Positions 1 to 22,509 of a stretch of DNA of 64,000 nt are shown here, in pieces. Within the stretch, counting starts at the first letter, position 1; every line of letters begins with the position of its first letter. The DNA is taken from positions 294,799-358,798 of the forward strand of contig NZ_QYAB01000002.1 in assembly GCF_016758175.1 (NCBI RefSeq), given 5' to 3'. Made by a program: the position numbers and the translations under genes. The DNA comes from Leucobacter zeae (GTDB lineage: Bacteria > Actinomycetota > Actinomycetes > Actinomycetales > Microbacteriaceae). Below the pieces are notes generated by a model that saw only the letters and a list, made by a program, of their open reading frames with translations, did not search any database and was not told where the DNA came from.

Positions 1-765
1 GGTTGCAGACGGCGGCGCGCACATCGTCGATCTGCCGACCGTCGCGTTCGAGCACGCGGGCATGTAGGCGGCACCGCCGAGGTAGGCGCGGCGCAGCAGT
101 TCGGGATCGTCCTCGAGCGCGCGGGAGGGCCCCTGGGCGTGGCTCACGCGTCCGCTCGAGACGACCATCGCCTCGTCGGCGATGCCGAGGGCGAGGTGGG
201 TGAACTGCTCGACGAGCAGCACCCCGACGCCCGCGGCCGCGATCTGCTGGATCAGCGGGAGGAGGCGCATGAACACGACCGGCGCGAGGCCGAGCGACAT
301 TTCGTCGATGAGCAGGAAGCGCGGCTTCGACGCGAACGCCCGCGCGAGCACCACCATCTGCTGCTCGCCGCCCGACAGCAGCGCCGACTGCGAGTCGATC
401 CGCTTCTCGAGCTCGGGGAACGAGCTGAGGACCTCCTGGAGCGCCGCGTCGGTCTTGGCCGTGAGCAGGATGTTCTCGCGCACGGTGAGGGAGGGGAAGA
501 TCGCGCGTCCCTGCTCGATGTGCGCGATCCCGGCCCGCGAGCGCTGCACGCGCTTCCACTTCGCGATCGACCGACCGTCGACCGCGATGTCTCCCCCCGA
601 GTGCCCGATGACGCCGGACACGGATTCGAGCAGGCTCGTCTTGCCGGCGCCGTTGGGGCCCACGAGCGCGAGGATCTCGCCCTCGCGCAGCGTCAGATCG
701 ACGCCGGACACGACGGGCCCGGCGCCCCGGCTCACGCTCACGCCGCTCAGCTGCAGTCCGCTCAT
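1..765 (-). CDS. Branched-chain amino acid-type ABC transporter ATPase (LivF-like), 3' end outside window
   Basis: The second ATPase of the importer encoded just upstream; it binds ATP on the cytoplasmic face of the permeases. The frame shows Walker A GPNGAGKT near residue 32, a canonical LSGGEQQ signature, Walker B LLIDEMSLGLAP and the switch-histidine region typical of LivF. The ATG overlaps the stop of the fused permease/ATPase gene (ATGA), so translation is coupled. The usual LivF C-terminus (RAYLGG) is reached about 75 bases before the left edge. The frame is still open there, so the gene either has a short extra tail or stops just outside. A second open frame beginning with a GTG near position 53 could be the start of the next gene. 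Confidence 0.9.
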   Translation of the reverse strand, partial: MSGLQLSGVSVSRGAGPVVSGVDLTLREGEILALVGPNGAGKTSLLESVSGVIGHSGGDIAVDGRSIAKWKRVQRSRAGIAHIEQGRAIFPSLTVRENILLTAKTDAALQEVLSSFPELEKRIDSQSALLSGGEQQMVVLARAFASKPRFLLIDEMSLGLAPVVFMRLLPLIQQIAAAGVGVLLVEQFTHLALGIADEAMVVSSGRVSHAQGPSRALEDDPELLRRAYLGGAAYMPACSNATVGRSTMCAPPSAT

Positions 766-2534
766 GCCGTCTTCTCCGCATCTCCCATGTATGCCGCGAC
801 CACGGCCGGATCGTCGAGCACTTCGCGTGTGGACCCCTGCGCGAGGACCTTGCCGAAGTCGAGCACGGTGAGCTCGGTGCACACTGAGCGCACGAGATCG
901 AGATCGTGCTCGATGATCACGATCGCGGTGTCGAACCGCGAGGGGATCCGCGTGAGCCGGTGCCCGAACTGCAGGTGCTCCTCGTGCGACAGACCGGCCG
1001 CCGGCTCGTCGAGGATCAGCACGCGCGGGCCGGAGAGCACCGCGGCCGCGACCTCGATGAGGCGGCGCGTGCCGACGTCCACGTTCGCCAGCTGCTCCTC
1101 GGGCGGCGGGCAGCCGAGGAACGCGAGGGCGTCGGCGAGCTCGTCGTGATCGAGGCGCTTACGGGCGACGAAGCGCACGTAGGCCTCCACCGACAGCTGC
1201 GGGGGTACGCGATCCTGCTGGAAGGTACGGCGCAGCCCGCGGCGGGCGCGGGCCACGGGGGAGAGGCGCGTGATGTCCTCCCCGTCGAGCAGCACGGTGC
1301 CGGTGTGCTGCGGCAGGAAGCCGCTGACGGCGTCCACGAAGGTCGACTTTCCTGCGCCGTTCGGGCCGATGAGTCCCATGATGCTGCGTGGCTTGACGCT
1401 CAGCGACACGTCGTCGTTGGCCTTGAGACTGCCGAATTGCACGCCGAGGGCGCGGACCTCGAGCACGGGGGCCGCGTCCGCCGGCACGGGCTCGGCCGCT
1501 TCGGGGACCGCGAACACGTCGAGTGCGGTCGTGCCTGCTTCGGCCGAGGCCTCCGCTGCGGCCGCGATGGCCGCCGCCCGGCGCTGCTTGCCGCGCTTGC
1601 GGATCGCGCCGCGGATCACCTCGCCGAGGTTCGAGCCGCCGGTGAGGGCCTGGATGCCGAGGATGCCGAAGACGACGAATCCCCAGTCCTGGGGTACTCC
1701 CCAGCGCTTCAGCAGCTCCGGAACCAGCACCCACAGGATGCCGCCGAAGATCGCCATATCGATCAGGTAGGCGCCGCTCATGATCGCGAGGATGTAGAGG
1801 GCGAGCGACTGGATCGGGGTGAAGCTCGACGCGTAGGGGATGCCGACCTGGCCCGCGAGCAGGCCGCCGGACACGCCGCCGAGCGCGGCGCTCACGGCGA
1901 ACGCGGAGAGCTTCGCCATGCGCACGCTCTGGCCGACCGCGGCGGTGCCGCGCTCCGAGAACGCGACGGCCTTCCAGCTGCTGCCCACCCGGCTGCGCTG
2001 CAGCAGGAAGACACCGACCGCGCAGACGACGAGTACGATCACGGCGAAGAAGAAGTACTCGCGGTCGTTCGAGAACATGTCAGGGCGCTCGACGGAAAGG
2101 CCGTCCTTCTGCCCGGGGAACTGGGTCTGCACGAGCAGGACGTCGAAGGCCGCGGCGAACCCGAGCGTGACGACCGCGAGGTTCACGCCGCGCAGGCGCA
2201 GGGCGGGAAGGCCGATCAGCACGCCCGCGAGGGCCGCGACGACGGCTCCTGCGATGAGCCACACGACGAAGCCGCCGGGGGTCTCGTTCTTGTTGAGGAA
2301 GGTCACGACCCACGCGCCGATGGCGCCGAAGGTGAGCTGGCAGAGCGCGATGATGCCGGCCGAGCCGGTGACGATGCCGAGGCCGAGGATCGAGATCGTC
2401 GCTGTCACCATGCTGATGGCGAGGTAGACGACGTAGCCCGACAGGCTGACGCTCAGGGCGTAGCCGACGCCGATGGCGGCGACCGCGACGACGATCGGGA
2501 GAACGGTGCGCAGGCGCCGATCAGCGAGCAGCAT
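762..2534 (-). CDS. Fused ABC permease and ATPase (LivM-LivG fusion)
   Basis: Membrane permease and first ATPase of a LivFGHMJ-type importer in a single 590-residue chain. Residues about 1-310 are hydrophobic, with the LivM pattern (ALRLRGVNLAVVTLGFA at about 111-127). A charged, alanine-rich linker follows (about 312-355), then an ABC ATPase with Walker A GPNGAGKS at 390-397 and Walker B LILDEPAAGLS. The signature position reads VDVGTRR instead of an LSGGQ-like motif, which is unusual even for LivG. The start is set by AGGAGG eight bases upstream of ATG, and it overlaps the end of the LivH-like gene by 14 bases. LivM-LivG fusions are known in actinobacteria and proteobacteria. The substrate cannot be read from the sequence. 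Confidence 0.9.
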   Translation of the reverse strand: MLLADRRLRTVLPIVVAVAAIGVGYALSVSLSGYVVYLAISMVTATISILGLGIVTGSAGIIALCQLTFGAIGAWVVTFLNKNETPGGFVVWLIAGAVVAALAGVLIGLPALRLRGVNLAVVTLGFAAAFDVLLVQTQFPGQKDGLSVERPDMFSNDREYFFFAVIVLVVCAVGVFLLQRSRVGSSWKAVAFSERGTAAVGQSVRMAKLSAFAVSAALGGVSGGLLAGQVGIPYASSFTPIQSLALYILAIMSGAYLIDMAIFGGILWVLVPELLKRWGVPQDWGFVVFGILGIQALTGGSNLGEVIRGAIRKRGKQRRAAAIAAAAEASAEAGTTALDVFAVPEAAEPVPADAAPVLEVRALGVQFGSLKANDDVSLSVKPRSIMGLIGPNGAGKSTFVDAVSGFLPQHTGTVLLDGEDITRLSPVARARRGLRRTFQQDRVPPQLSVEAYVRFVARKRLDHDELADALAFLGCPPPEEQLANVDVGTRRLIEVAAAVLSGPRVLILDEPAAGLSHEEHLQFGHRLTRIPSRFDTAIVIIEHDLDLVRSVCTELTVLDFGKVLAQGSTREVLDDPAVVAAYMGDAEKTA

Positions 2535-3396
2535 CCCACACCTCCTTTCGCTGCGACCACAGCAGCAGGATGACGATGCAGATGAGCGGAACGAAGTTCC
2601 TCACGAGCGTGAGAGCGTTGACCTGGGCCACCATGCCGTTGATGAGGCCGAGGAGCAGCCCGCCGACGACTGCGAGGTCGAGTCGCTTGAAGCCGCCGAG
2701 CAGCGCCGCGGCCGCGGCCGGGATGATGAGCATCGACAGCGTGACGGCGTCGTTCGATTGGGTCGGGGCGATGATGAGGATCGTCACTGCGCCGATCGCG
2801 CCGGTGACCGCCCACACACCGACGGCGAGCGGCTTCGAGGAGATGCCGATGAGTTCGGCGGTGGTCGGCCGGTCCGACAGCGCGCGAAGCTTCGTCCCCA
2901 CCGTCGTTTTGCGCAGCACGAGCCCGGCCGAGAGCGCGACGAGGATCGCCAGCGACACGGTGATGACGGTGACCCAGCTGACCACGACGCCCGCGAGCGA
3001 GAACGCCGGTCCGTTGAAGATCGGCTCGAACGGCTGCGGTTTGTTCCCGAACAGGATGTATGACAGCGACATCAGCAGCAGGAACGGCCCGACGGTCATG
3101 GCCGAGCGCGTCGAGAGGTCGGCCTCGGAGAGCCAGGTGGCGGCGATCCAGCCGATCAGCGCGCTGAGCAGTGCGCCGACGAGCACGCCGGCGATGGTCG
3201 CGAGCCACACCGGCATGCCGAGCTTGCTCGCGAACCAGACCGCGACGAACGCGGCGAACATGCCGGTCGCCGCCTGCGCGAAGTTCACGACGCGCACGAG
3301 GCGCGACATGAGTGTGAGCGTGACCGCGAACACCGCGTACACGCCTCCGGCGGCGAGGCCCGAGAGCGCGCCCTGCAGGAGTGCGCCGCCGTTCAC
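2521..3396 (-). CDS. Branched-chain amino acid-type ABC transporter permease (LivH-like)
   Basis: Integral membrane subunit, 291 residues, with about eight hydrophobic segments and the LivH-typical N-terminus (LQGALSGLAAGGVYAVFAVTLTLM). It pairs with the LivM half of the next gene to form the channel. The start is a GTG with GGAGG seven bases before it. The 3' end overlaps the next gene by 14 bases. A 172-base gap with a strong hairpin separates it from the binding-protein gene upstream, so binding protein and channel may be expressed at different levels. In family members, substrates include leucine, isoleucine, valine, urea, amides and aromatic acids. Confidence 0.9.
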   Translation of the reverse strand: MNGGALLQGALSGLAAGGVYAVFAVTLTLMSRLVRVVNFAQAATGMFAAFVAVWFASKLGMPVWLATIAGVLVGALLSALIGWIAATWLSEADLSTRSAMTVGPFLLLMSLSYILFGNKPQPFEPIFNGPAFSLAGVVVSWVTVITVSLAILVALSAGLVLRKTTVGTKLRALSDRPTTAELIGISSKPLAVGVWAVTGAIGAVTILIIAPTQSNDAVTLSMLIIPAAAAALLGGFKRLDLAVVGGLLLGLINGMVAQVNALTLVRNFVPLICIVILLLWSQRKEVWDAAR

Positions 3397-3459
3397 GGCC
3401 GCCTCCAGGCGGATCGGGATCGGGAAGTGTCAGTCATGGGGATCCTTCAGAAGCTAGTC

Positions 3460-3533
3460 GCCGACCGAGCGAGTGGAGCGAGTCGAAATCCTCGTGCGGA
3501 GGGGTTTCGACTCGCTCCACTCGCTCAATCGGC
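3460..3533. repeat. Near-perfect 31-bp inverted repeat (REP-like hairpin)
   Basis: The arms 3460-3491 and 3503-3533 are complementary over about 30 bases, apart from one small bulge and two mismatches near the outer end; the loop is about 11 bases. The arms carry the phrase GAGCGAGTGGAGCGAGTCGAAA. It lies between the binding-protein gene and the permease gene on the minus strand. It has no T-run, so it may be an mRNA-stabilising or partial-termination hairpin within the operon, or a copy of a dispersed extragenic palindrome. Confidence 0.8.
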
Positions 3534-3568
3534 AGCGGTGTGTTGCACGGCGGGAAGCCGACGGAACA

Positions 3569-4750
3569 TCAGTTCGCGGGGATCATCAGCCAGTCGTCGG
3601 CAGCCTGCTCCCATGCGTTCTTGCCGGACTTGAGGGTGACTGGCCAGCCGCCGGGCTGGAAGTCCTGTGCAGCGATCTTGTCGAATTCGTAGGGGTAGGC
3701 GATCATCGGGTTCTCGATCGGCTGCATATCGGCGAGCGCCCGGTTGACGCTTTCACGTGTGATGTCGCCCTCGATGCTCTCCAGTACCTCGACCATGAAG
3801 GTCGCGGCGAGGTAGCCGCCCTGGCTGAACGAGGTCAGCGTGATGTCGTTCTCCTCCATCAGCGACTTCCAGTCGGCGTTGATCTCGTTGTCCTCCGTGA
3901 ACGGGTAGAACTCGGCTGGTACGTAGACGCCCGCCGCGCTGTTGGACACGGCCTTCGCGAAGCTCTCGCTGTACACGGAGGTCAGCATCAGGAAGGTGAC
4001 GTCGTCCCAGCCCTGCTGGTTCGCCGCCTTGATCATGCCGATGGCGTCGGGCTCGACGTTGTTGGTCACGACGCCGTCGCAGCCGGCCTCCTTGGCCTTC
4101 ACGACGTAGGGCGTGTAGTCGGCCCCGCCGTACGGCACCGTGTCGTCCACGAGCTTCGGCTTCTTCCCGGTGATCTCGCTCCAGCGATCCACCGCGGCCT
4201 TGTAGGCGGGCCCGGTGGATCCGATGACGCTCGTCAGCACGCAGAGGTTCTCGAGACCGAGCTCCTCTGAGCCGTAGAGCATGGTGAGCGTGGTGTCGTT
4301 GAACGGGCCGATGTTGGCCGGCGCGATGTTGGGCGAGTTGAAGCAGCCGGGATCGACGCCGATGCCCTGGATCGAGCGGACGTCCTCCTGCTCGTAGTAC
4401 TTCGCGTTGATCTCGCAGTCGAGCAGCGAGGCGCCTCCGACGAGCGCGACGACCTCGTCGCTGCCGACGAGTTCGCGGGCCGAAGCGGTCGCGGTCGCCG
4501 GGTCTGCCTTGTCGTCGGTGGCCTTGTACTCGATCTTGTGGCCGTTGATGCCGCCGTCGGCATTGACCTCGTCGAAGACGGCCTTCGCCGCTTCCGAAGC
4601 CTCGGGAAAGGTGGCCGGGCCGCTGATGGTGTTGACGGAGCCGAGCTTGATGGGAGCATCGTCGCCCCCGCCGCTGCCTCCCGCGCAACCGCTCAGCGCG
4701 AGCGCGGCGACGGCCGTCAGCGCGGCTGCGCCCAGAATGCGTGACTTCAT
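3569..4750 (-). CDS. ABC transporter substrate-binding lipoprotein (LivJ/Peripla_BP_6-like)
   Basis: Extracellular lipid-anchored receptor of the adjacent importer, 393 residues. The N-terminus is a lipoprotein signal with lipobox ALSGC and the acylated cysteine at residue 22, followed by a Gly/Ser linker. The mature part follows the leucine/isoleucine/valine-binding fold (IKLGSVNTISGPATFPEASEA near the start, then two Rossmann-like lobes). It is the most upstream transporter gene, preceded by the MoaF-family gene 63 bases away on the same strand. The ligand is unknown. The company of an amino-alcohol-type kinase and a PLP lyase suggests an amine or amino acid derivative, which is inference only. 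Confidence 0.9.
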   Translation of the reverse strand: MKSRILGAAALTAVAALALSGCAGGSGGGDDAPIKLGSVNTISGPATFPEASEAAKAVFDEVNADGGINGHKIEYKATDDKADPATATASARELVGSDEVVALVGGASLLDCEINAKYYEQEDVRSIQGIGVDPGCFNSPNIAPANIGPFNDTTLTMLYGSEELGLENLCVLTSVIGSTGPAYKAAVDRWSEITGKKPKLVDDTVPYGGADYTPYVVKAKEAGCDGVVTNNVEPDAIGMIKAANQQGWDDVTFLMLTSVYSESFAKAVSNSAAGVYVPAEFYPFTEDNEINADWKSLMEENDITLTSFSQGGYLAATFMVEVLESIEGDITRESVNRALADMQPIENPMIAYPYEFDKIAAQDFQPGGWPVTLKSGKNAWEQAADDWLMIPAN

Positions 4751-4813
4751 CGTGTGTCCTCTCGGGATGGATGTGCTGGTACTGGTGAAGATCGTGGGTG
4801 CGAGGGGCCGGGC

Positions 4814-5632
4814 TCAGACGGGCTGCGCATCCGGGTACGCGACGGTGCCGAGGGGGTAGATGTGCCCTCCGGCCCGCGAGTGCTCGGAGACCCCGTCGCC
4901 GGTGATGCCGAGGAAGATGCCCGTGGTCATGAGGTCGTAGCCGAGGTCGTGGAGCCACACGCTCGCGACCGAGATGCGGAACTCGCGGAAGCAGAAGAGG
5001 TAGAGCCCGTCGTCGAGCTTCCACACCGTCGAGAGGTCCATGTCGCCGTGGCCCCGCTGCACGCCCTGGAGGTTCTGCCAGGCATAGCGCTCGCTCGACA
5101 TGTAGACGTGCTCGTACAGGTGCTCCGGGCTGTAGCGGTAGACGTTGCGCATGCCGATGAGGTCGCGCGACGCCGCGGGGGCCTCGCCGGTCGCCGCGAT
5201 GCCGTCGATCGTCGCGGCGTGGAACTCCTGCTTCACCTGGGGCTCGCCCTCGACGCGTTCGGCGTCGATGCGTGAGCGGGTCACGATCGCGCGCCCGGTG
5301 CGCTCCGACCATACGACGGTCACCGCCTCGCGCTCACGCGATTCGAGCGGCAGATTGAGGAAGTAGACGCCGTCGCGCACGCGAACCGCGTCGTAGGGGT
5401 CAACGGCGTCGCGCGCATCGATCGCGCCGGTGGCGCTCCACGTGGCCGTGCCTGCGCCGAACGCCGCGGTGAGCGCGCTGCCGTCGTCGAGGGTGAGGGT
5501 GAGGGTGCGCCCCTCGAGCGAGACCCCGGGCAGGCGGTACGTGTCGATCCCTGCAGCGAACTCGTCGTACGTCGCCCAGTCGTCGACGCCTCTGCGCTCG
5601 TCGGTGATCGATCCGATTCGCGTGTCGGTCAT
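4814..5632 (-). CDS. MoaF family protein
   Basis: A 272-residue protein that reads along its whole length like the MoaF family (N- and C-terminal MoaF domains), with a repeated beta-rich pattern: a first half with a DGVYFLNLPLESREREAVTVVW-type core, and a second half with YSPEHLYEHVYMSSERYAWQ and DDGLYLFCFREFRI. Databases often call this a molybdenum cofactor protein. As I recall, the name comes from the monoamine-regulated moaEF operon of Klebsiella aerogenes, and no cofactor role is established. The start chosen is the ATG at 5632 behind an AGGGGG stretch; longer upstream frames lack similarity. The neighbours (FeaR-like regulator, transporter) fit an amine-catabolic role. Confidence 0.75.
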   Translation of the reverse strand: MTDTRIGSITDERRGVDDWATYDEFAAGIDTYRLPGVSLEGRTLTLTLDDGSALTAAFGAGTATWSATGAIDARDAVDPYDAVRVRDGVYFLNLPLESREREAVTVVWSERTGRAIVTRSRIDAERVEGEPQVKQEFHAATIDGIAATGEAPAASRDLIGMRNVYRYSPEHLYEHVYMSSERYAWQNLQGVQRGHGDMDLSTVWKLDDGLYLFCFREFRISVASVWLHDLGYDLMTTGIFLGITGDGVSEHSRAGGHIYPLGTVAYPDAQPV

Positions 5633-5747
5633 GTCCCTGCCCCCTGCACTGCTCCGTTGCCCGTGATGCGGGGTGGGCGCCGCTCGGCCGGTTCGCACGT
5701 GTCGAATCCGGGGCCGGGAGGCGTCGCTGCCCGCTGCTGCTGCCGCA

Positions 5748-5808
5748 ACTGTACGCAGAGTTCAGAGTTTTTCGAGGCCCGCGGGTCAGGCACTTCCGCC
5801 TGAGTCAA
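5748..5808 (-). promoter_or_regulatory. Possible promoter and regulator site in the 227-bp gap before the MoaF gene
   Basis: On the minus strand a TACAGT hexamer (5748-5753) could be a -10 box. A 6-bp inverted repeat TCAGGC/GCCTGA (5786-5803) and a TTGACT (5803-5808) lie upstream of it, but not at standard -35 spacing. The gap follows the AraC-type regulator gene and precedes the MoaF and transporter genes, so a regulated internal promoter is reasonable. Weak evidence. Confidence 0.25.
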
Positions 5809-5859
5809 GCCGTGTTCGTCCCACGACAACCCGGGTCACGGAATGGTTGCGGATCCCGC

Positions 5860-6903
5860 TCAGGTGTTGCGCAGTTCGCTGGGCGAGACCCCGTACGTGG
5901 TCTTGAACACCCGGCTGAAATGCGCCGCGTCGGTGAGGCCCCAGCGTGCTGCGATCGCTGAGACGGTACGGTCGGCGAGCACGGGATCGAGCAGGTCGGT
6001 GCGGCAGCGCTCGAGCCGGCGCTCGCGGATCCAGGTCGACACGGTCGTGTCGGCCTCGCGGAAGAGCGCGTGCAGGTGCCGGGTGGAGACGTAGTGCGCT
6101 GCCGCGATGCTGCTGGGGGAGAGTTCGGGGGACGCGAGATGCGTGTCGATGTACGCGTAGATCTTCTGCATGAGGAGGCGGTGCGGGTCGCGCTGCGCCG
6201 GATCGGCGCCGAGCACGCTCGAGAAGAGCATGGTCATCAGGTCGAGACTCGTGTGGGCGAGCTTCGTGCGGAGGCGGCCGTCGAGCTCGGAGAGCTGCGC
6301 CGGGAACTGCGAGAGGAACGCGGTCACGATGGGGGTGAGCCCGCCGTTCTCGGTGCCGAAGGACACGGCGGTGAGCTGCTCCGTGAACGGAGCGGGCAAG
6401 TCGAGACGATCCTTCGGGAACATCATGATGAGGTTGCGGAAATCCTGGTCGAACAGGAGCGAGTACGGTCTCGAGGTGTCGTAGACGGAGAGGTCCCCCG
6501 GGCGCATCACCACCTCCCGGCCGTTCTGCACGAGGATGCTGCTGCCTGCGAGCAGCAGGCTCACCTTGTAGTACCCGCTGCCGCCGTCTGCGATGTTCTC
6601 CGGCGTGCGCTCGACCAGGTGGGGCTTCGCCGCGACCTCGGTGAACACGACGTCGTCCGCCTCGACGGATTGCATCCGCCCCGTGAACGGACGATCGGTC
6701 TCGGCCGACACCTGCAGGGGGACGAACGAGGAGGCGACCATGCTGCGGAACGCCGCGAGGCTGTCCGCCCGCGCGGGTCCGCCCGGAGCCGCTGGACGCA
6801 GGGACCCGCCGTCGGGACGCGCCGGAACCCGGCCGGGGCCCGCCTCCGCCCGCTGAGCGGGAGCTGCCGGCCGGAATGCGTTCTGCTGCGCTGCAATGTG
6901 CAT
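5860..6903 (-). CDS. AraC family transcriptional regulator, FeaR-like
   Basis: DNA-binding regulator of 347 residues. Residues about 50-220 form an AraC_binding_2/cupin-like sensor (YYKVSLLLAGSSILVQNGREVVMRPGDLSVYDTSRPY). The last 100 residues hold the two helix-turn-helices of AraC (HYVSTRHLHALFREADTTVSTWIRERRLERC and DAAHFSRVFKTTYGVSPSELR). This sensor type is shared with FeaR, which controls tyramine/phenylethylamine catabolism in E. coli. The first 45 residues are Ala/Pro/Arg-rich and probably disordered. An AGAGGTG sequence about nine bases before ATG supports the long start. It sits 27 bases after the class III aminotransferase gene, likely in the same transcript, and probably controls it and the MoaF/transporter genes. 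Confidence 0.85.
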   Translation of the reverse strand: MHIAAQQNAFRPAAPAQRAEAGPGRVPARPDGGSLRPAAPGGPARADSLAAFRSMVASSFVPLQVSAETDRPFTGRMQSVEADDVVFTEVAAKPHLVERTPENIADGGSGYYKVSLLLAGSSILVQNGREVVMRPGDLSVYDTSRPYSLLFDQDFRNLIMMFPKDRLDLPAPFTEQLTAVSFGTENGGLTPIVTAFLSQFPAQLSELDGRLRTKLAHTSLDLMTMLFSSVLGADPAQRDPHRLLMQKIYAYIDTHLASPELSPSSIAAAHYVSTRHLHALFREADTTVSTWIRERRLERCRTDLLDPVLADRTVSAIAARWGLTDAAHFSRVFKTTYGVSPSELRNT

Positions 6904-6930
6904 GGCTGACTCACCTCTTGGACGTCGAGA

Positions 6931-8205
6931 CTACACGGAAACCTCGTCGAGCGCCGCAGCGAGCGCGTCGAGCAGGATCGGCAGTTCCGCCTGTCCGAAG
7001 GCGAGCGGCGGACGCACCTTCAGCACGCTCTCGTCGCGGCCGATCCGCGAGATGAGCACCTTGCGGGCCTTGACCCCCTCGACGACCTGCTTGGCGAGGT
7101 GCGGAGCGGGGGCTCCGTCGACCGCGAAGTCGAGGCCGAGGAACATCCCGGTGCCCTTGGCGGAACGCACGAAGTCGTACTGCCCGGCGAACTCGCGGAA
7201 ACGGGCGAGGGCCTCGGCGCCGAGGGTCGCGGCGCGCGTCATCAGCTGCTTCTCCTCCATCTCGACGAGCACGGCCTCGCCGACCGCCGCCGAGACGGGG
7301 TTGCCCGCGAAGGTGTTGAAGAACTCGTTGCGGGAACCGAACGCGTCGAGCACGGCCTCGCTCGTCACGACGGCCGACATCGGGTGGCCGTTCCCCATGG
7401 GCTTGCCGAGCGTCACGAGGTCGGGGGTCATTCCGGCGAACTGGTAGCCCCACATGTGGCTGCCCGTACGGCCGAAGCCGCTCTGCACCTCGTCGGCGAT
7501 GACCATGCCGCCCGCGGCCCGCACCCGGTCGACGATGCCCGTCACCAGCCCGGCGGGCACACGAGGCATGCCCTCGGTCGAGAAGAGCGAGTCGAAGAGG
7601 CAGGCGGCGACGCCGTAGCCCGCCTCCTGGAGGGAGGCGATCGACGCATCGAGGGAGGCGAGCGCCTCGGAGAGCACCTCGGCATCAGGGCGCGGGTCGC
7701 GGTCCAGGTCGGGGATCCGCAGCGTGCGCACGTGGGGATCGAGGGGGACCGCGGTCTGCAGCCCCGTGGTCAGGCCTGCGAGCGTGATCGTCGTCCCGTG
7801 GTAGCTGTAGTCCGAGACGATCATGCCGATGTTCCCGGTGAGCTGCCGCGCGATCCGGATCGCGAGCTCGTTGGCCTCGGATCCCGAGTTGCCGAAGAAG
7901 ATCCGGTCGAGGTGCGGGTCGAACGTCGCGAGCAGCCGTTCCGAGTAGTCGATGACGCGTTCGTTGAGGTATCGGGTGTGCACGTTGAGGGTCGCCGCCT
8001 GCTCGGAGAGCGCGCGGACGACGCGGTCGTTGCAATGGCCCACGTGGGGCACGTTGTTGTACCCGTCGAGGTAGCGGTCGCCGTTCGCCTCGGTGAACCA
8101 CACGCCCTTGGCCGACACGAACTGCAGCGGCTCGGAGTAGAACAGCGGGGAGTAGGGGCCGATGGTGCGGTTGCGGCGGGCGAGGAGGTCCGAGGTGGAG
8201 GTCAT
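6931..8205 (-). CDS. Class III PLP enzyme, AGXT2L/phospho-lyase-like aminotransferase family
   Basis: PLP-dependent fold-type I enzyme of 424 residues. Diagnostic stretches are YLDGYNNVPHVGHC, the FFGNSGSEANELAIRIAR cofactor loop, ADEVQSGFGRTG and the Schiff-base lysine K268 in TLGKPMGNGHP. The NNVPHVGHC and GKPMGNGHP forms are those of the AGXT2L1/AGXT2L2 branch, whose animal members are not transaminases but phospho-lyases acting on phosphoethanolamine and phosphohydroxylysine. The gene directly upstream, 22 bases away, is a kinase of the family that makes such substrates. I therefore infer elimination of phosphate and ammonia from a phosphorylated amino alcohol, giving an aldehyde; an ordinary omega-transaminase remains possible. 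Confidence 0.85.
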   Translation of the reverse strand: MTSTSDLLARRNRTIGPYSPLFYSEPLQFVSAKGVWFTEANGDRYLDGYNNVPHVGHCNDRVVRALSEQAATLNVHTRYLNERVIDYSERLLATFDPHLDRIFFGNSGSEANELAIRIARQLTGNIGMIVSDYSYHGTTITLAGLTTGLQTAVPLDPHVRTLRIPDLDRDPRPDAEVLSEALASLDASIASLQEAGYGVAACLFDSLFSTEGMPRVPAGLVTGIVDRVRAAGGMVIADEVQSGFGRTGSHMWGYQFAGMTPDLVTLGKPMGNGHPMSAVVTSEAVLDAFGSRNEFFNTFAGNPVSAAVGEAVLVEMEEKQLMTRAATLGAEALARFREFAGQYDFVRSAKGTGMFLGLDFAVDGAPAPHLAKQVVEGVKARKVLISRIGRDESVLKVRPPLAFGQAELPILLDALAAALDEVSV

Positions 8206-8227
8206 GCGAAGATCCGTTCGTTGGAGG

Positions 8228-9229
8228 TCAGTCGGCGATCAGCGTGCGCGCCAGGCGGACGAGGTGGGGGAGCACGGTCGTCGCGTGCCATTCCGCGGTG
8301 GGCTCGCCGCGGCGGTCGGCCGCCCAGCCGAGGTAGGTGAGTCCGCGGGCGAGGAGGATCGCGGGGAACGCCTCGCGGTCGGCGTCGTCGAGCGGCCGGA
8401 CGGACTCGTATCCGCTGAAGAGCGCGTCGCGGTAGTCCGGGTAGCGCGGGTGCGGGGTGAAGAAGTAGAGCGCGGTCGCGATGTCGAAGAGGTGCCACCC
8501 CGCCGCGAAGTCGTCGAAGTCGATGAGCACGAGCCCCGTGGGCGTGCGCAGCACGTTCTCCGGGGTGAGATCGGCGTGGATCGGCCCGAAGCGGTGGGGA
8601 GGAGCGCCGTACGCCTGCAGGGTGTCGCGGATCCGGGCGATCGCGGCCCCGACGTCGGCGCGGTCCGCCCCGACGAGCTCGGCGATGCGCAGCGGGTCGC
8701 CCCAGGCGGGCCGCGCGCCCACGAGCCCGTCGAGGTCCCAGTCGTCCCGCGGCACGGCCATCGCGTAGCCGGAACGCTCGGTCGCCTCGTGCACGCGCGC
8801 CGTGAGGCGGCCGAGCTCGAAGAAATCGCCCGGGTCGATCTCCGCCGTCCCCGCCACTGCGGTGCGCTCGTCCCCGAAATTGCCCGAGTTCTCGATCAGC
8901 AGCTGCAGGTCGACCTGGTGCGGGCCGGCCGGGTGCTCCGCGCCGACGGCGCAGAAGCCGTCTCCGGCAGGCGTCGGGACGAACGCGGGCACGGCGACGC
9001 CCGCGGCGTGCAGGGCCCGCACAAAGTCGAGCTCGCACCCGAGCTCGGCGTCGCTGTGGTAGCCCCGCCGGTGCACGCGCAGCACGTGATCCACGCCGTC
9101 GACGGCCAGCGCGAAGACGAAGTTCTCGCGGTTCTTCAGCAGGCGGAGCGGCGTGTCCGACGGGATGCCGTAGGCGTGCAGCGCCTCGCGGGCGAGCTCG
9201 GTCGCTGCGGCGAGATCGACGGCGATCAT
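8228..9229 (-). CDS. Aminoglycoside phosphotransferase (APH)-fold small-molecule kinase
   Basis: Protein-kinase-like phosphotransferase of 333 residues. It has a glycine/lysine N-lobe (LLKNRENFVFALAVDGVDHVLRVHR), the Brenner catalytic loop HADLTPENV near residue 218 and the metal-binding DFDD near 237. This family includes hydroxylysine kinase, choline/ethanolamine kinases, homoserine kinase II and antibiotic kinases. Paired with the downstream AGXT2L-like enzyme, the best guess is phosphorylation of an amino alcohol such as hydroxylysine or ethanolamine. The start at 9229 follows GGAAGGA at good spacing; an upstream in-frame ATG at 9319 lies within the promoter and is rejected. It is the first gene of the minus-strand run. 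Confidence 0.85.
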   Translation of the reverse strand: MIAVDLAAATELAREALHAYGIPSDTPLRLLKNRENFVFALAVDGVDHVLRVHRRGYHSDAELGCELDFVRALHAAGVAVPAFVPTPAGDGFCAVGAEHPAGPHQVDLQLLIENSGNFGDERTAVAGTAEIDPGDFFELGRLTARVHEATERSGYAMAVPRDDWDLDGLVGARPAWGDPLRIAELVGADRADVGAAIARIRDTLQAYGAPPHRFGPIHADLTPENVLRTPTGLVLIDFDDFAAGWHLFDIATALYFFTPHPRYPDYRDALFSGYESVRPLDDADREAFPAILLARGLTYLGWAADRRGEPTAEWHATTVLPHLVRLARTLIAD

Positions 9230-9283
9230 GCGGGTCCTTCCGAGGGGCGCCCGTGCGGTGAAGCGCGGGCGGCGTCTGGTTTC

Positions 9284-9321
9284 TGTACTCGAAGTATAGA
9301 AATCGAACTCCGAGTACACAA
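9284..9321 (-). promoter_or_regulatory. Promoter of the kinase operon overlapped by a palindromic TetR-type operator
   Basis: On the minus strand TTGTGT (9316-9321), a 17-base spacer and TATACT (9293-9298) form a good sigma-70-type promoter 60 bases before the kinase gene. An 8-bp inverted repeat TGTACTCG (9284-9291) / CGAGTACA (9311-9318), with extra symmetric bases inside, spans the promoter. The divergent TetR gene starts 30 bases away, so autoregulation and control of the kinase operon by that TetR is likely. Confidence 0.7.
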
Positions 9322-9350: not shown

Positions 9351-9998
9351 ATGACGACGAGCACGGCTGAAGCGCGGGCCAGCGGGGCCGGCGGCGTTCG
9401 GAACGCGGCGAAGCCGGGCAGCCTGCGCGAGCGCCGGCAGCAGCGCACCCGCGCGGAGCTCGTCGATGCGGTGCTCGCGGTCATCGCCTCCGGCGGGCTC
9501 GTCGATGCGACGATCGAACGGGTTTCGGCGGAGTCCGGCATCTCGCGCGGCACCGTGTACGCGCATTTTCCCGGCGGACGCGACGAGCTGCTCCGCGCCG
9601 CCTATGCGCGGCTGGGGCGCACGCTCGTCGAGCGCACGCGCGCGGCCGTGTCCGCGGCGGAGGACTGGCGCGGCCGCCTCGAGGCGCATGCCAGGGCCAT
9701 GTTCGACCTGGCGGGCGACGTGCGCGTCGGTCACTTCTTCAACGTCTCGGGCCCCACGCTCATCACCGAGGGTTCGGAGCGCGGCATCGGATCCGGGGCG
9801 AGCGTCGTGATGATCCGGGAGACGCTCGAGGCCGCCCAGCTGGCGGGAGAGGTCGACGCCGGGGTCGACGCCGCGACGACCGCGGTGCTGCTCGTCGGCG
9901 CGCTGCGGGAGGCGGCCATCTCCGTGTCCGCGGGCGCGAACTCTGCTGAGCGCGCCTACGCGGCCTTCGCGCGCGTGGTCGACGGCCTGGCGGGCTGA
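9351..9998 (+). CDS. TetR family transcriptional regulator
   Basis: Repressor of 215 residues. A short Ala/Gly-rich leader precedes the TetR N-terminal helix-turn-helix at about residues 27-75 (RQQRTRAELVDAVLAVIASGGLVDATIERVSAESGISRGTVYAHFPGG); the helical C-terminus is a ligand domain with no assignable ligand. It is divergent from the kinase/lyase/transporter run and shares its 121-base promoter region, so it probably represses that run. No Shine-Dalgarno sequence precedes the ATG, but TAGACT at 9339-9344 ends six bases before it, the arrangement expected for a leaderless transcript. Confidence 0.88.
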   Translation: MTTSTAEARASGAGGVRNAAKPGSLRERRQQRTRAELVDAVLAVIASGGLVDATIERVSAESGISRGTVYAHFPGGRDELLRAAYARLGRTLVERTRAAVSAAEDWRGRLEAHARAMFDLAGDVRVGHFFNVSGPTLITEGSERGIGSGASVVMIRETLEAAQLAGEVDAGVDAATTAVLLVGALREAAISVSAGANSAERAYAAFARVVDGLAG

Positions 9999-10088: not shown

Positions 10089-10793
10089 TCAGACGTCGGC
10101 CCCGCGAGCGGCGGTGCGCTCCGCCGACTGGATCACCGACTCGACACCCAGGTGGAAGATTGCGCGGTCGTCGAGATCGCCGAGCTGGCGGTTGAACTCG
10201 GCGATGCGGGGGTAGGTGCGCGGATCGGCGAGGATCGGTCCGTCCAGCCACGGGCTGAACTCGAGCTCTTCCTCGGCATCCGGGCGCTCACGGTTCTCGG
10301 CTCTGCCGATGGCGATGCCCGAGGCGGTCGAGAGTACTTGCGAGGCGAACAGCGCGTAGTGCCTGACGACCTCCTCGGGCGGCAGTCCCGCGCGGGTGAA
10401 TGCGTCGAGCATGATCTCGATCGCGCCGAGCTCGCCCGGACCGTGCGTGGTGAGCACCATCGCCTCCGCCGCGACCGACGGGTGGCGGCAGAACTCGACG
10501 AGCGTCGATTCCGCGAGTTGCCTCAGGCGTTCGCGCCACTGCTCGTCCGGGGCGGTCACCGCGTCGAGGCTGCGCAGCGTGAGTGCGTCGAGCAGCGCCT
10601 CCATGAGGTGCGCCTTGTTGCGGAAGTGCCGGTAGATGGCCGTGGGGTCGACGCCGAGGCGGATCCCGAGCTCCTTGGCGGGGAGCACGATCGCGTTCGT
10701 CCCTGCCGCCACCTCGAGCGCGACCTCGATGATGGTCTCCGCGTCCAGGCGCGGTTTGGCGCCGGCTCTCGTCCGGCGTTCGGCTGATGCCAT
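10089..10793 (-). CDS. TetR family transcriptional regulator (TetR_C-type ligand domain)
   Basis: Repressor of 234 residues. The N-terminal helix-turn-helix at about 18-68 ends in GIRLGVDPTAIYRHFRNKAHLMEALLD, the classical TetR form. The C-terminal part resembles the tetracycline-repressor-type C domain (ERLRQLAESTLVEFCRHPSVAAEAMVLTTHGPGELGAIEIMLDAF). AGGAGG lies eight bases before the ATG. It is divergent from the amidohydrolase/ABC importer/monooxygenase operon, and a strong palindrome lies on that operon's -35 box, so it very probably represses that operon and releases on binding the catabolic substrate or a product. Confidence 0.9.
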   Translation of the reverse strand: MASAERRTRAGAKPRLDAETIIEVALEVAAGTNAIVLPAKELGIRLGVDPTAIYRHFRNKAHLMEALLDALTLRSLDAVTAPDEQWRERLRQLAESTLVEFCRHPSVAAEAMVLTTHGPGELGAIEIMLDAFTRAGLPPEEVVRHYALFASQVLSTASGIAIGRAENRERPDAEEELEFSPWLDGPILADPRTYPRIAEFNRQLGDLDDRAIFHLGVESVIQSAERTAARGADV

Positions 10794-10959
10794 GGGTGCC
10801 TCCTGGGTGCGCTGCAGCGTGTTCGTGCGCTGTCCTCCATCGTGGCACAGGGCGTCCCGGTGCCGTGCCGTAGCGCGACCGTCCGCCGCGGACTCGCCGT
10901 GCCTCCGGTGCGGTCGGTGCGATCGGTGCGATCGGCGTACCGCCAGGAAAGCCGATACG

Positions 10960-11009
10960 CAATCAGGTTGTCAAGTGAGTTGACAAACGGATTGCGCTCA
11001 ACGTACGCT
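10960..11009 (+). promoter_or_regulatory. Promoter of the amidohydrolase operon with palindromic operator
   Basis: TTGTCAA-GTGAG-TTGACAA (10968-10986) is a perfect 7-bp inverted repeat, extended by CAATC (10960-10964) and GATTG (10990-10994) in symmetric position. Its right arm contains TTGACA (10980-10985), an ideal -35 box, followed after 18 bases by TACGCT (11004-11009) as -10. The operator thus covers the -35 element of the + strand operon. GGAGGAG precedes the ATG at 11053. The 259-base gap to the divergent TetR gene holds nothing else recognisable. Confidence 0.8.
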
Positions 11010-11052
11010 CGCTCCTGTCGCAATTCGAAGACGAACCGATGGAGGAGCAGAC

Positions 11053-12726
11053 ATGGCAGTCGACCTGTTGTACACCGGGGGTCCGGTCTTCACCGGCGCC
11101 GGTCGCCCGCTGCAGGGTGTAGCCGTGGCGGTCGAAGCGGGCAGGATCGCCGCGGTCGTCCCCGAGCGCGATGCCGGAGGGATCGTCGGGCCCGAGACCG
11201 AGATCGTCGATCTGGCGGGGGCGCTGCTCGCTCCGGGATTCCAGGACGCGCACATCCACGCCGTCGGCGGAGGCGTGGAGCTGCTGCAGTGCGACCTCAC
11301 CCGCACGGCCAGCGCCGACGAAGCGGTCGCGGAGATCGCCGCCTACGCCGAGCGGACCGCGCCGGCCGACGGCGAGCCGGGCTGGATCGTCGGCGCCGGC
11401 TGGTCCATGGACCACTTCCCCGGGGGCGCCCCGCTCCGGGGGCTGATCGACGCGGTAGTCGCCGATCGACCCGTGCTGCTTGAGAGCCGGGACCACCACA
11501 GCGCCTGGGCGAACACTGCGGCGATCCGGGCGGCCGGCATCGACACGAGCACGCCGGACCCCGCGGACGGGCGCATCGAGCGGGATGCCGACGGATTCCC
11601 ATCGGGCACCTTCCACGAGGGGGCGGTCGGGCTGTTCGGCGGAGTGCGCCCCGAGACCAGCGACGAGCTCGCCTATCGCGGGCTGCTGCGCGCGCAGGAG
11701 GAGCTCCTCGCGCTCGGGATCACCGGGTGGCAGGACGCGATGGTCGGCAACGACGGTCCGGGTGCCGGTGCGATCGAGGCGTACGAGCGCGGGATCGCGG
11801 AGGGGACGTTGCGCGTTCACGTCGTCGGCGCACAATGGTGGGACCGCGACCGGGGCCTCGAGCAGATCGAACGGATGCTCGAACGGCGCGACGCGCGTGC
11901 GGCGTCGGGAGAGCGGGACCGATTCGACCTCGGCACCGTCAAGATCATGGTCGACGGCGTCGCTGAGAACTTCACGGCCTCGATGCTCACGCCGTACCGC
12001 GACGCCGATGGGCACGACACCTGCAACCACGGCATCTCGTTCATCGACGCCGAGGTGCTGGGGGAAGCGGTCTCGCGGCTCGACGCCGCCGGCATGCAGG
12101 TCCACTTCCACGCGCTCGGAGATCGCGCCGTGCGCGATGCGCTCGACGCCGTGGCCGGGGCGCGCGCCGCCAACGGGGCAAGCGACGGCCGTCACCATCT
12201 CGCCCATCTGCAGGTCGTCGCCGAGGTCGATGCGCCGCGGTTCGCGGAGGTCGATGCGACCGCCAACCTGCAGATGCTCTGGGCCACGCACGAGGAGCAG
12301 ATCGACACCCTGACGCTGCCCTTCATGCAGGAGGGGCAGGAGGCGCGGCAGTATCCGTTCGGGGACCTCGTGCGCGGCGGTGCCCGCATCGCCGCAGGCA
12401 GCGACTGGCCGGTCTCCTCCGCGGATCCGCTCGCCGCGATCCAGATCGCCGTCACGCGGATCGCGCCCGGTCTTGAGGCCGACCCGCTCGGCGGCGCGCA
12501 CCAGCGCCTGCCGCTCGAGGTCGCGCTCGCCGCGTACACGTCGGGCACCGCGTACGTGAACCACCGCGATCACGACACCGGTTGGGTGCGCGAAGGATAC
12601 CTCGCGAACCTCGTCGTGATCGAGCCCGACCCGTTCGGGCTGTCGGATGACGAGCTCCACCGCGCGCGGGTTCGCGAGACCCGGGTGTCCGGCGAGCTCG
12701 TGTTCACCGCTCCGACCGCGGACTGA
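11053..12726 (+). CDS. Amidohydrolase family protein (YtcJ-like, Amidohydro_3)
   Basis: Cytoplasmic metal-dependent hydrolase of 557 residues, first gene of a catabolic operon. The metal-binding HxH lies at H67-I-H69 (GFQDAHIHAVGG). Further landmarks are the SRDHHSAWANTAAL-like segment, DAMVGNDG, the VKIMVDGVAENFTA stretch, histidines in VHFHALGDRAVRDALDA and HHLAHLQVV, and the closing AAGSDWPVSSADPLAAIQ. These are typical of YtcJ-like enzymes, which open cyclic or linear amides or N-acyl bonds; no specific substrate can be named. A peptide-type importer follows immediately, so the substrate is probably taken up by it. Confidence 0.88.
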   Translation: MAVDLLYTGGPVFTGAGRPLQGVAVAVEAGRIAAVVPERDAGGIVGPETEIVDLAGALLAPGFQDAHIHAVGGGVELLQCDLTRTASADEAVAEIAAYAERTAPADGEPGWIVGAGWSMDHFPGGAPLRGLIDAVVADRPVLLESRDHHSAWANTAAIRAAGIDTSTPDPADGRIERDADGFPSGTFHEGAVGLFGGVRPETSDELAYRGLLRAQEELLALGITGWQDAMVGNDGPGAGAIEAYERGIAEGTLRVHVVGAQWWDRDRGLEQIERMLERRDARAASGERDRFDLGTVKIMVDGVAENFTASMLTPYRDADGHDTCNHGISFIDAEVLGEAVSRLDAAGMQVHFHALGDRAVRDALDAVAGARAANGASDGRHHLAHLQVVAEVDAPRFAEVDATANLQMLWATHEEQIDTLTLPFMQEGQEARQYPFGDLVRGGARIAAGSDWPVSSADPLAAIQIAVTRIAPGLEADPLGGAHQRLPLEVALAAYTSGTAYVNHRDHDTGWVREGYLANLVVIEPDPFGLSDDELHRARVRETRVSGELVFTAPTAD

Positions 12727-12827
12727 CGCTCCCGCGACCCCGGCTCGTCCGAGGCCGCCCGCCCTCCGGACCCGCGCCGCGCGCGGACGGAATCACCCGC
12801 ACGACCATCTCATCGAGGAGAATCACC

Positions 12828-14477
12828 ATGCCCATCACATCACGGCCGCACCGTCGCGGCGCCGCAGCCGCCGCGGGGGTCGCGGCACTGGCCGTCGCCC
12901 TGGCGGGCTGCGCCTCCGGCACGGGCGGCGGCGAACCGCCTGCCCCCGTCGAATGGGAGCTGACCGAGCAGACCGCAGCCCCCTCGGGCGACATCGACAG
13001 GATCACCTGGGGCAGCTACTCCGAGCCGTTCTCGCTCGACTACATCTACGCGTTCGACTATGCGGACAACCAGGTGCTCGCGAACGTCTGCGAATCGCTG
13101 CTGCGGCTGAACCCCGATTTCACGCTTTCGCCGAGCCTCGCCGAGTCCTTCGAGAACGAGACCCCGACGACCTGGGTGTATCAGATCCGCGACGGGGTGC
13201 GGTTCCACGACGGGACCGTGATGACCGCGGACGACGTCGTCGCCTCGATGCGCCGACACCTCGACCCCGAACTCGGGTCGTCGTGGTACAGCGTGTACCA
13301 GAACGTCGAGAAGATCGAGAGGACGGGCGAATCCGAGGTCACGGTGACCACGAGGATCCCCGATTCGCAGTTCAACCTCGGCATGGGCGGATCGGCGGGC
13401 GTCATCGAGTCCGCGGCGACGCTCGAGAAGCTCGGCGCCGACTACGGCAACTCGACGGGCGGCGTCAACTGCACCGGCCCGTTCGCCTTCTCGGAGTGGA
13501 CGTCGGGCGAGTCGATCTCGCTCGAGCGCTTCGACGACTACTGGAACGACGACTTTCGGGCGAGGTCCGAGACGTTCGACTTCGTGTTCATGAACGATGC
13601 GAACGCCCGCGTGAACGCGCTCAAGTCCGGCGAGATCGACGGCAGTTGGCTGCTGCCGATGAACTCGATCGCGCAGATGCAGCAGGAGGGCTCCGGCGAC
13701 GTGCTCTTCGGGCTCAACACCTCGGTCGGAGACCTCATCGTGTCGAACCTCGATGGGCCGCTCGGCGACCGGACGGTCCGGCAGGCGCTCCTCATGGCCA
13801 TCGACCGACAGGGCATTCTCGACGCGGCATACAGCGGCGTCGGAGAGGTCTCCGACGTGCTGTCGACCGAGTCGGTCTGGGGCGCGGCCGATCCCGCGGC
13901 GAAGCAGGCCGCGTTCGGCGGCATCACGTCGTACGACACCGATATCGCGGCGGCGAAGCGGCTCGTCGAGGAGGCCGGAGCGACGGGGGAGCAGATCACG
14001 ATCGCGACCGCGCCCATCGGCCCGGAGTTCGCCGTGGTCTCGCAGGCCACCGCCGCGGCGGCGAAGTCGATCGGACTCGACGCGAAGATCGAGACCGTCA
14101 CCCCGAGCGCCTACACGACGCTCTTCTCCGATCCGAGCGCGCGCGAGGGAGTCGACCTCTTCTACACGCTGTGGTACCTCTCGAGCCCCGACCCGCTCGA
14201 GATGTACGGCGTGCTGCGCACCGGCGAGTTCTCGAACTACGGCGGATGGAGCGATCCCGAGTACGACGATCTCGTCAACCGCGCCGTGTCGACCATGGAC
14301 CCCGCCGAGCGGAGCGAGATCACTGCGCAGGCGCAGCAGCTGACGAACGAGGAGCTGCCCTGGCTGCCGCTCTTCACGATCCCGAACGCCGTCTACATGG
14401 GCGAGCGCATCACGGGCATGTCGCCGTCGCTCGCGTTCCTCTACTACCCCTGGGCGGCGACGCTCGGGGCCCGCTGA
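12828..14477 (+). CDS. ABC transporter substrate-binding lipoprotein, peptide/nickel family (SBP_bac_5)
   Basis: Lipid-anchored receptor of 549 residues. The signal peptide ends in the lipobox ALAGC with the acylated cysteine at residue 28. The mature part follows DppA/OppA-type receptors (SLAESFENETPTTWVYQIRDGVRFHDGTVMTADDVVASMRRHLD; VRQALLMAIDRQGILDAAYSG; LPWLPLFTIPNAVYMGERI). It lies 101 bases after the amidohydrolase and directly before two permeases and a fused ATPase. A strong hairpin after its stop codon may keep its mRNA level above that of the permeases. The ligand is unknown; this family also carries non-peptide substrates. Confidence 0.92.
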   Translation: MPITSRPHRRGAAAAAGVAALAVALAGCASGTGGGEPPAPVEWELTEQTAAPSGDIDRITWGSYSEPFSLDYIYAFDYADNQVLANVCESLLRLNPDFTLSPSLAESFENETPTTWVYQIRDGVRFHDGTVMTADDVVASMRRHLDPELGSSWYSVYQNVEKIERTGESEVTVTTRIPDSQFNLGMGGSAGVIESAATLEKLGADYGNSTGGVNCTGPFAFSEWTSGESISLERFDDYWNDDFRARSETFDFVFMNDANARVNALKSGEIDGSWLLPMNSIAQMQQEGSGDVLFGLNTSVGDLIVSNLDGPLGDRTVRQALLMAIDRQGILDAAYSGVGEVSDVLSTESVWGAADPAAKQAAFGGITSYDTDIAAAKRLVEEAGATGEQITIATAPIGPEFAVVSQATAAAAKSIGLDAKIETVTPSAYTTLFSDPSAREGVDLFYTLWYLSSPDPLEMYGVLRTGEFSNYGGWSDPEYDDLVNRAVSTMDPAERSEITAQAQQLTNEELPWLPLFTIPNAVYMGERITGMSPSLAFLYYPWAATLGAR

Positions 14478-14490
14478 CCAGATGACGCAG

Positions 14491-14523
14491 CCGGCCCGGT
14501 TCCCGCACGCGGGACCGGGCCGG
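14491..14523 (+). terminator. Intercistronic hairpin between binding protein and permease genes
   Basis: CCGGCCCGGT (14491-14500) pairs perfectly with ACCGGGCCGG (14514-14523), and CCCGC/GCGGG extends the stem inside, leaving a two-base loop. It has no T-run. Such hairpins after binding-protein genes often stabilise the upstream message or cause partial termination. Confidence 0.65.
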
Positions 14524-14547
14524 CGCTCCGACCGGAGAGATCAGACG

Positions 14548-15504: not shown

Positions 15505-16367
15505 CCACCGTCAACCCCACCACGGCCGTGCGCGTCATCCGCGCCCCGAAGCGGCGCCGATCGGGCATCCTGTTCACGGCGAGCGCCGTGGTCCTGGGCG
15601 CCGTGACGGTGGCCGCGGCGCTCGCGCCGATGATCGCGCCGTACGATCCCGACGCCGTCGACCTGCTCGCGTTCAACGCCGGGCCGAGCCGGGCGCACTG
15701 GCTCGGGAGCGATGCGCTCGGCCGCGACATCCTCAGCCGCATGATCTACGGCGCCCGCACGGCGCTCCTCGGGCCGCTGCTCGTCGTCGTGTTCTCGACG
15801 ATCGTCGGGATCCTGCTCGGGCTGCTCGCTGGCTGGCGCGGCGGTTGGATCGACGCGGTCCTCAGTCGCGTCTTCGACGTGATCTTCGCGTTCCCAGCGC
15901 TCCTTATCGCTATCATGGCGGTCGCCCTGTTCGGCAAGGGGCTGACGGCGCCGGTCATCGCCATGAGCCTCGCCTATGCGCCGTACGTCGCCAGGCTCAC
16001 GCGCTCGCTCGTGATGGCGGAGCGGAACCGGCCGTACGTCGCGGCGTACCGGGTGCAGGGCTTCGGCGGCGCCTGGATCGCGCTGCGCCGGGTGCTGCCC
16101 AACATCGCTCCCGTCGTCGGCGCACAGTCGACGCTGAACTTCGGCTACGTGCTCGCCGAGCTCGCCGGCCTGTCCTTCCTCGGCCTCGGGGTGCAGGCTC
16201 CGGCGGCCGACTGGGGCGCCATGATCAACGAGGCGCAGGCGGGCATCGCCGGCGGCTCGTTCCTGCCGGCGATCGTGCCGGCCATCGCGGTGGTCATCGT
16301 GGTCGTCGCGGTCAACATCATCGGGGAAGAACTCTCGGAACGCATCGGCGGAGGTGCATCGGTATGA
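15501..16367 (+). CDS. ABC transporter permease, DppC/OppC-like
   Basis: Partner permease of 288 residues. It carries the DppC pattern: an N-terminal helix, then APYDPDAVDLLAFNAGPSRAHWLGSDALGRDILSRMIYGAR, and the cytoplasmic coupling loop NRPYVAAYRVQGFGGAWIALRRVLPN. Start and stop both overlap neighbours by four bases (ATGA at each side), indicating tight translational coupling within the importer. Confidence 0.92.
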   Translation: MTTVNPTTAVRVIRAPKRRRSGILFTASAVVLGAVTVAAALAPMIAPYDPDAVDLLAFNAGPSRAHWLGSDALGRDILSRMIYGARTALLGPLLVVVFSTIVGILLGLLAGWRGGWIDAVLSRVFDVIFAFPALLIAIMAVALFGKGLTAPVIAMSLAYAPYVARLTRSLVMAERNRPYVAAYRVQGFGGAWIALRRVLPNIAPVVGAQSTLNFGYVLAELAGLSFLGLGVQAPAADWGAMINEAQAGIAGGSFLPAIVPAIAVVIVVVAVNIIGEELSERIGGGASV

Positions 16368-22446: not shown

Positions 22447-22509
22447 GGGGCAGCGCGCGGATCCCGAGCCCCGTGCGTTCGGCGGCGTCGAGTGCGCGGC
22501 GCGCTCCGG

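Follow-up and report, generated by a model that had tools for sequence, protein, structure and literature searches.

Which amino alcohol is broken down by a kinase and a pyridoxal phosphate (PLP) enzyme that are encoded 22 bases apart, in one operon with their own importer? The question is raised by a locus of Leucobacter zeae lying in a stretch of 64,000 nucleotides (contig NZ_QYAB01000002.1, positions 294,799 to 358,798; hereafter the window). A first-pass annotation of the window had proposed a kinase feeding a phospho-lyase, supplied by a dedicated importer and turning an amino alcohol into aldehyde, ammonia, and phosphate, with hydroxylysine, ethanolamine, or another amino alcohol as the substrate. 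All genes it named are present on the minus strand, in the order and with the kinase–PLP gene spacing it described, and the scheme itself is, judging by sequence, probably right. Of the substrates it offered, "another amino alcohol" is the one retained: within the genus as well as in bacteria unrelated to it, the neighbors are genes of aromatic amines and aryl-acetic acids. The operon is assigned here, with a probability of roughly two in three, to the catabolism of aryl-ethanolamines (octopamine, noradrenaline, 2-amino-1-phenylethanol). This assignment builds on the gene identities, the phospho-lyase descent of the PLP enzyme, the co-location of the genes, and a natural lyase–dehydrogenase fusion, all as read from the sequences.

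The PLP enzyme is well supported as a phospho-lyase by descent, as judged by bit scores and by its place in the tree. Among 192 matched solved sequences, the phospholyase of Paenarthrobacter aurescens TC1 comes first with 508 bits (57% identity), followed by the human ethanolamine-phosphate phospho-lyase with 285 bits and 2,2-dialkylglycine decarboxylase with 146 bits. The tree places the enzyme in a 23-row actinobacterial clade (SH-aLRT 100) together with the TC1 lyase and a Streptomyces fusion protein. The PLP lysine is Lys268 within GKPMGNGHP, and the GKPMGNG motif is common to the TC1 and human enzymes. The AGXT2L type named by the first-pass annotation is thereby borne out; grouping with ordinary transaminases, which it had put forward as the contrary outcome, was not obtained, the enzyme falling among the phospho-lyases instead. 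An ordinary omega-transaminase is suggested by the family name Aminotran_3 only and is very improbable given the drop in score from the two phospho-lyases to the next class III enzyme. Moreover, eight further class III loci were scanned in this genome, and the lysine region could be read in three of them: AKGIAGG and AKAIASG differ, and one long-frame protein shares KPMGNG. Positions separating the clades, for example P20, H54, T146, E211, and R387 of the PLP enzyme, were listed; by themselves they do not show an aryl pocket. A second phospho-lyase-like PLP gene of this genome (G000:C2:122436-123728; L080), of 45% identity, falls into the other of the two clades compared and may serve another amino alcohol. 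In the lyase hits of genomes G009, G011, G024, and G035 and the kinase hits of G028 and G035, one stop codon lies inside the aligned stretch; these may be matches running past the true end.

The kinase features, in its 363-residue reading, the motifs HADLTPEN at 248 (HxDxxxxN) and IDFDDF at 266 (DFD), and starts with GTG at 9319 or alternatively with ATG at 9229. Its best solved and nearest characterized relative is 6ef6 (133 bits), reported as the kinase that phosphorylates (S)-1-amino-2-propanol in the RMM microcompartment of M. smegmatis. An amino alcohol is proposed as its substrate.

In the proposed pathway, aromatic amines would be taken up by the Liv-type ATP-binding cassette (ABC) importer, and the kinase would phosphorylate the benzylic hydroxyl. 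With the primary amine bound as an aldimine, the PLP enzyme would eliminate phosphate from C-beta, leaving an enamine that hydrolyzes to ammonia and aryl-acetaldehyde. The aldehyde would then be converted by a FeaB-like dehydrogenase to an aryl-acetic acid, to be degraded through homoprotocatechuate meta-cleavage. In genomes that have a copper amine oxidase, amines lacking the benzylic hydroxyl would reach the same aldehyde through that enzyme. Acting on a beta-hydroxy aromatic amine, an amine oxidase would leave the hydroxyl in place and yield no aryl-acetic acid; kinase and lyase would remove this hydroxyl and converge on the aldehyde given by oxidation of tyramine or dopamine. With aryl-acetaldehyde as the product of the phospho-lyase, its substrate would be an O-phospho-2-amino-1-arylethanol and the precursor octopamine, noradrenaline, or phenylethanolamine. 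The substrate is the one that gene context makes most likely; the order of the steps, control of the operon by its FeaR-like and TetR regulators, and any role of MoaF are likewise inferred.

This context starts directly beyond the window. On the same strand, LivF is followed by genes for a copper amine oxidase, an amidohydrolase of the Amidohydro_3 family, and EthD; the ~1 kb that separates LivF from the amine oxidase is unassigned apart from one doubtful 101-codon frame. The amine oxidase scores 845 bits against NF008559 (cut-off 651), and its best solved relative is the phenylethylamine oxidase of A. globiformis (609 bits). On the same contig (C2) as the PLP gene (C2:301729-303003), the genome carries a FeaB-like dehydrogenase (C2:257199-258611), 67% to the TC1 enzyme, and hpa genes (C2:242149-248970). 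HpaD (425.6 bits, cut-off 321.4) and HpaE (657.6, cut-off 638.35) both pass; HpaH (344, cut-off 352) and HpaI (293, cut-off 369) are best hits under the NCBIfam cut-off. Phenylacetate was rejected as the sink in this genome, which has no PaaA (present in 23 of 54 genomes of the genus). The annotated neighbors, which do not comprise every gene, include no gene of a lysine or acetaldehyde pathway; as first choice, the hydroxylysine and plain ethanolamine that the first-pass annotation had offered are not supported. A hydroxylysine kinase with a phosphohydroxylysine phospho-lyase, as in the animal pathway, would draw on the same enzyme families; with aromatic genes where an aminoadipate-semialdehyde or lysine gene would be looked for among these annotated genes, it is a very remote candidate.

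The operon recurs within the genus. Kinase homologues were detected in 24 of 60 genomes searched, own included (22 at ≥70% identity, two at ~40%); all 24 belong to the 37 genomes from this genus, and the 23 from other genera gave none. The lyase of the pair is found in 36 of 54 genus genomes, 31 at ≥74% identity and five TC1-type at 55–57%. Twenty-two same-genus loci were read around kinase homologues, leaving out the own window and including one TC1-type locus (L059); L051 ends at a contig end and L050 was read in part. Kinase and PLP gene stand together in all 22, accompanied by the FeaR-like gene in 20, TetR in 20, MoaF in 18, and binding protein, LivH, and LivM/LivG in 18. Because these genes recur in 18 to 22 of the 22 loci, the gene order is more than chance. 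Departures occur: G021 is without MoaF and importer, but ~4 kb off it carries the FeaB-like dehydrogenase together with another FeaR-like gene, and G074 reads TetR, kinase, PLP enzyme, FeaR-like gene, amino-acid permease, amidohydrolase, and hpa operon. The LivM–LivG match is split by ~1.2 kb in G026 (L041 16105-19174) and appears as two overlapping matches in L042 and L048, where the two genes are perhaps unfused.

The aromatic genes accompany the pair to varying degrees. In L. edaphi (G062), the cluster, amine oxidase, FeaB, and hpa genes all lie in ~29 kb, in the order kinase, lyase, FeaR, MoaF, binding protein, LivH, LivM–LivG, a second ATPase match, an SDR gene (opposite strand), amine oxidase, amidohydrolase, EthD, a GMC oxidoreductase (opposite), FeaB, HpaH, HpaI, a FAH-type gene, GntR, HpaE, and HpaD. 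As HpaE occurs in 48 of 54 genus genomes, presence or absence of hpa has no power as a test, and contig distance was used instead: in the 36 pair-bearing genomes, HpaE is on the contig of the lyase in 25 (9–81 kb), on another contig in nine, and not found in two. A copper amine oxidase lies ≤16 kb from the lyase in 13 of the 36, three of which (G002, G011, G074) have it elsewhere than on the LivF side. Eight of the 36 are without any copper amine oxidase, and all eight have HpaE and a FeaB-like gene; the six with a completely read locus retain the FeaR-like gene, MoaF, and the importer (of the others, G023 is cut at a contig end and G060 was left out of the locus reading). Finally, 16 of 54 copper amine oxidase genes lie ≤5 kb from a FeaB-like gene, which fits an aryl-acetaldehyde dehydrogenase.

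Beyond the genus, GTDB species genomes were scanned and the best 80 loci kept, several of them cut by contig ends; 57 of the 59 same-clade loci outside Leucobacter stem from this set, and the counts given here hold among the matches listed. The pair was found near hpa or paa genes in Paenarthrobacter, rhizobia, Sphingobium, Planktotalea, Marinobacterium, Aliamphritea, Pseudomonas, and Streptomyces. The TC1 plasmid has FeaB-like dehydrogenases to either side of the lyase, along with kinase, TetR, AraC, MoaF, EthD, and hpa genes; in Mesorhizobium AR07, paaX, paaA-E, and paaZ come after the pair and a permease. By their own annotation, the plasmid regions of Rhizobium CIAT894 and BT03 feature 4-hydroxyphenylacetate 3-hydroxylase and hpa genes—the former also MoaF and a branched-chain-type ABC importer—that of Sphingobium TomTYG64 features hpc genes, and that of Phyllobacterium a tyramine oxidase and a dehydrogenase. 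In Streptomyces torulosus (L087 9983-12763), a frame of 926 residues joins the lyase (1–416) to an aldehyde dehydrogenase (461–922), an arrangement indicating that the lyase product is an aldehyde. The fusion adjoins PaaA and an AMP-binding ligase with an AMP-binding_C_2 domain, as in paaK, a position that suggests phenylacetate as the acid formed. In two Rhizobium loci (L170 9278-12945, L175 9282-12936), the pair is directly preceded by genes for a further class III aminotransferase, a hydrolase of the HAD type, and a Tm-1-like protein, the last being UPF0261 in L156.

At least two hpa markers or PaaA lie within 10 kb in 12 of the 59 same-clade loci versus none of 26 in the other clade, and 55 of the 59 carry a detected kinase homologue versus three of the 26. 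These counts bear on two further readings. The first is that the pair degrades ethanolamine or 1-amino-2-propanol via their O-phosphates, in the manner of known bacterial routes for amino alcohols, and has aromatic neighbors only since amine genes cluster. The closest solved enzymes, a phospholyase reported to use phosphoethanolamine and the reported (S)-1-amino-2-propanol kinase 6ef6, would agree with it; we nevertheless regard it as unlikely, because hpa/paa, FeaB, MoaF, FeaR-like, and amine oxidase neighbors recur in several lineages, the fusion stands beside paa, and all 26 loci of the other clade are without such a marker. The second is direct elimination of water from the amino alcohol, with the kinase serving another reaction. 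PMC8154272 describes such a class III enzyme acting on a beta-hydroxy amine with loss of water and ammonia—PbfA, the (R)-1-hydroxy-2-aminoethylphosphonate ammonia-lyase. With a score of 161.7 against the NF049939 cut-off of 525 and a kinase beside nearly every same-clade lyase, this reading has little to commend it.

Several observations weigh against aryl-ethanolamines as the substrate. The hpa and FeaB-like genes of L. zeae lie 45–60 kb from the operon and outside it; the binding protein gives no ligand hint, its solved relatives being too distant (best 35 bits); and the TC1 lyase reportedly acts on phosphoethanolamine. Outside Leucobacter, 47 of 59 same-clade loci are without hpa or PaaA within 10 kb. 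The Fisher p for the contrast between the clades is only 0.015, for loci that are not independent and whose neighborhoods are partly co-inherited, and the 12 marked loci include the two that gave the idea, leaving 10 of 57. Two of the six annotated plasmid regions, those of Pseudomonas MPC6 and Gemmobacter, show no such aromatic genes. In addition, an HpaB-type 4-hydroxyphenylacetate 3-hydroxylase (PF03241) was not found in the L. zeae genome (it occurs in 11 of the 54 genomes of the genus), so that either ring hydroxylation would need another enzyme or the substrate would be a catechol. A catechol-only substrate is not concluded, because a phenol-2-monooxygenase-type flavoprotein is encoded 14 kb from the kinase (window 23450-25357; NF006144 945 bits, cut-off 560). 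PF08028 has three hits in this genome, all on another contig.

The components of the operon are collected in Table 1.

Table 1. Genes of the operon and its divergent regulator, in window coordinates
Feature	Position	Strand	Evidence
LivF-type ATPase, crosses window start	-197 to 765 (G000:C2:294601-295563)	-	
LivM–LivG, one fused permease and ATPase gene	762-2534	-	PF02653 at 36-291, PF00005 at 373-511
LivH-type permease	2521-3396	-	PF02653 89 bits
Liv-type substrate-binding protein	3569-4750	-	PF13458 198 bits
MoaF	4814-5698	-	PF10703 74 bits (cut-off 23), PF17409 110 (cut-off 22)
FeaR-like AraC-family regulator	5860-6903	-	NF007243 153 bits (cut-off 199)
Class III PLP phospho-lyase, proposed O-phospho-aryl-ethanolamine phospho-lyase	6931-8205	-	5g4i/5g4j 508 bits; 6tor 285; tree
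APH-fold kinase, proposed aryl-ethanolamine kinase	8228-9319	-	PF01636 59 bits
TetR-family regulator, divergent	9351-9998	+	PF00440; 33% to TC1 TetR

The full Liv-type transporter of the first-pass annotation is real, but the span given for the run (2521-9229) was too short, LivM–LivG and LivF lying outside it. Its FeaR-like regulator stands in so far as FeaR is the best NCBIfam model; with a score below the cut-off, the protein is called FeaR-like. It is 39% to the AraC protein of TC1. MoaF is confirmed by both of its domains. A structure model of MoaF compares with 4q51 at a TM-score of 0.75, and a fold search with the model returned MoaF itself on top, followed by phenolic acid decarboxylases at E ≥ 0.004—a likeness that is a hint only. 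A scan for promoters and terminators gave signals not above chance. Beside the operon, window 10089-18001 encodes a module of a TetR regulator, an enzyme of the Amidohydro_3 family, and an ABC transporter of the peptide type; its first three genes also stand beside the cluster in L043, L046, L047, L052, L055, and L057, among others, and the module might, as a guess, release or import acylated amines. Window 20494-30048 has an aromatic-catabolic look, with a TPP enzyme, IclR, flavoprotein, PaaX-like regulator, aldehyde dehydrogenase, and amino-acid permease.

The chemistry of kinase plus phospho-lyase is known for small amino alcohols; on its use on aryl-ethanolamines, nothing was found in the open-licence literature, and its use on aromatic amino alcohols would be new. 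Enzyme numbers exist for the net conversion of octopamine and of synephrine to 4-hydroxyphenylacetaldehyde, but neither reaction is known to have an assigned gene. The wider proposal, on which we lean toward acceptance by a small degree, is that aromatic beta-hydroxy amines are widely degraded by phosphorylation and elimination, with the genes residing on plasmids and genomic islands in both Actinomycetota and Proteobacteria. It would form the gene basis of bacterial octopamine and noradrenaline breakdown, parallel to the amine oxidase route, with which it would have importer, regulator, and sink (homoprotocatechuate or phenylacetate) in common. If true, the assignment would give a substrate class to a large clade whose members are annotated as "aspartate aminotransferase family" and "phosphotransferase", and the solved structure of the TC1 enzyme would acquire a physiological meaning. 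It would also explain why the FeaR-like regulator and MoaF are retained in genomes without copper amine oxidase and would provide genes for a possible bacterial consumption of octopamine and catecholamines.

Among known systems, the TC1 locus is closest. Its lyase (A1RDF1/AAur_pTC20101; PDB 5g4i, 5g4j) has the identity given above, and kinase, TetR, AraC, MoaF, EthD, FeaB-like, and hpa genes are common to both. TC1, however, features an amino-acid permease instead of the Liv importer, and its dehydrogenases are directly adjacent to the lyase. Human ETNPPL/AGXT2L1 (PDB 6tor) is likewise a class III phospho-lyase with GKPMGNGHP in common but is far more distant, has no bacterial-type operon, and differs at several clade-specific positions. 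The kinase shares the APH fold of 6ef6; no microcompartment genes were met among the annotated Leucobacter neighbors, and no search for shell proteins was made. PbfA releases water, and the Leucobacter PLP enzyme stays far under the cut-off of its model. With aromatic monoamine catabolism, the Leucobacter system shares the FeaR-like regulator, MoaF, an AGAO-like amine oxidase, and a FeaB-like dehydrogenase; what it adds is the kinase and the phospho-lyase—a putative second way to the same aldehyde.

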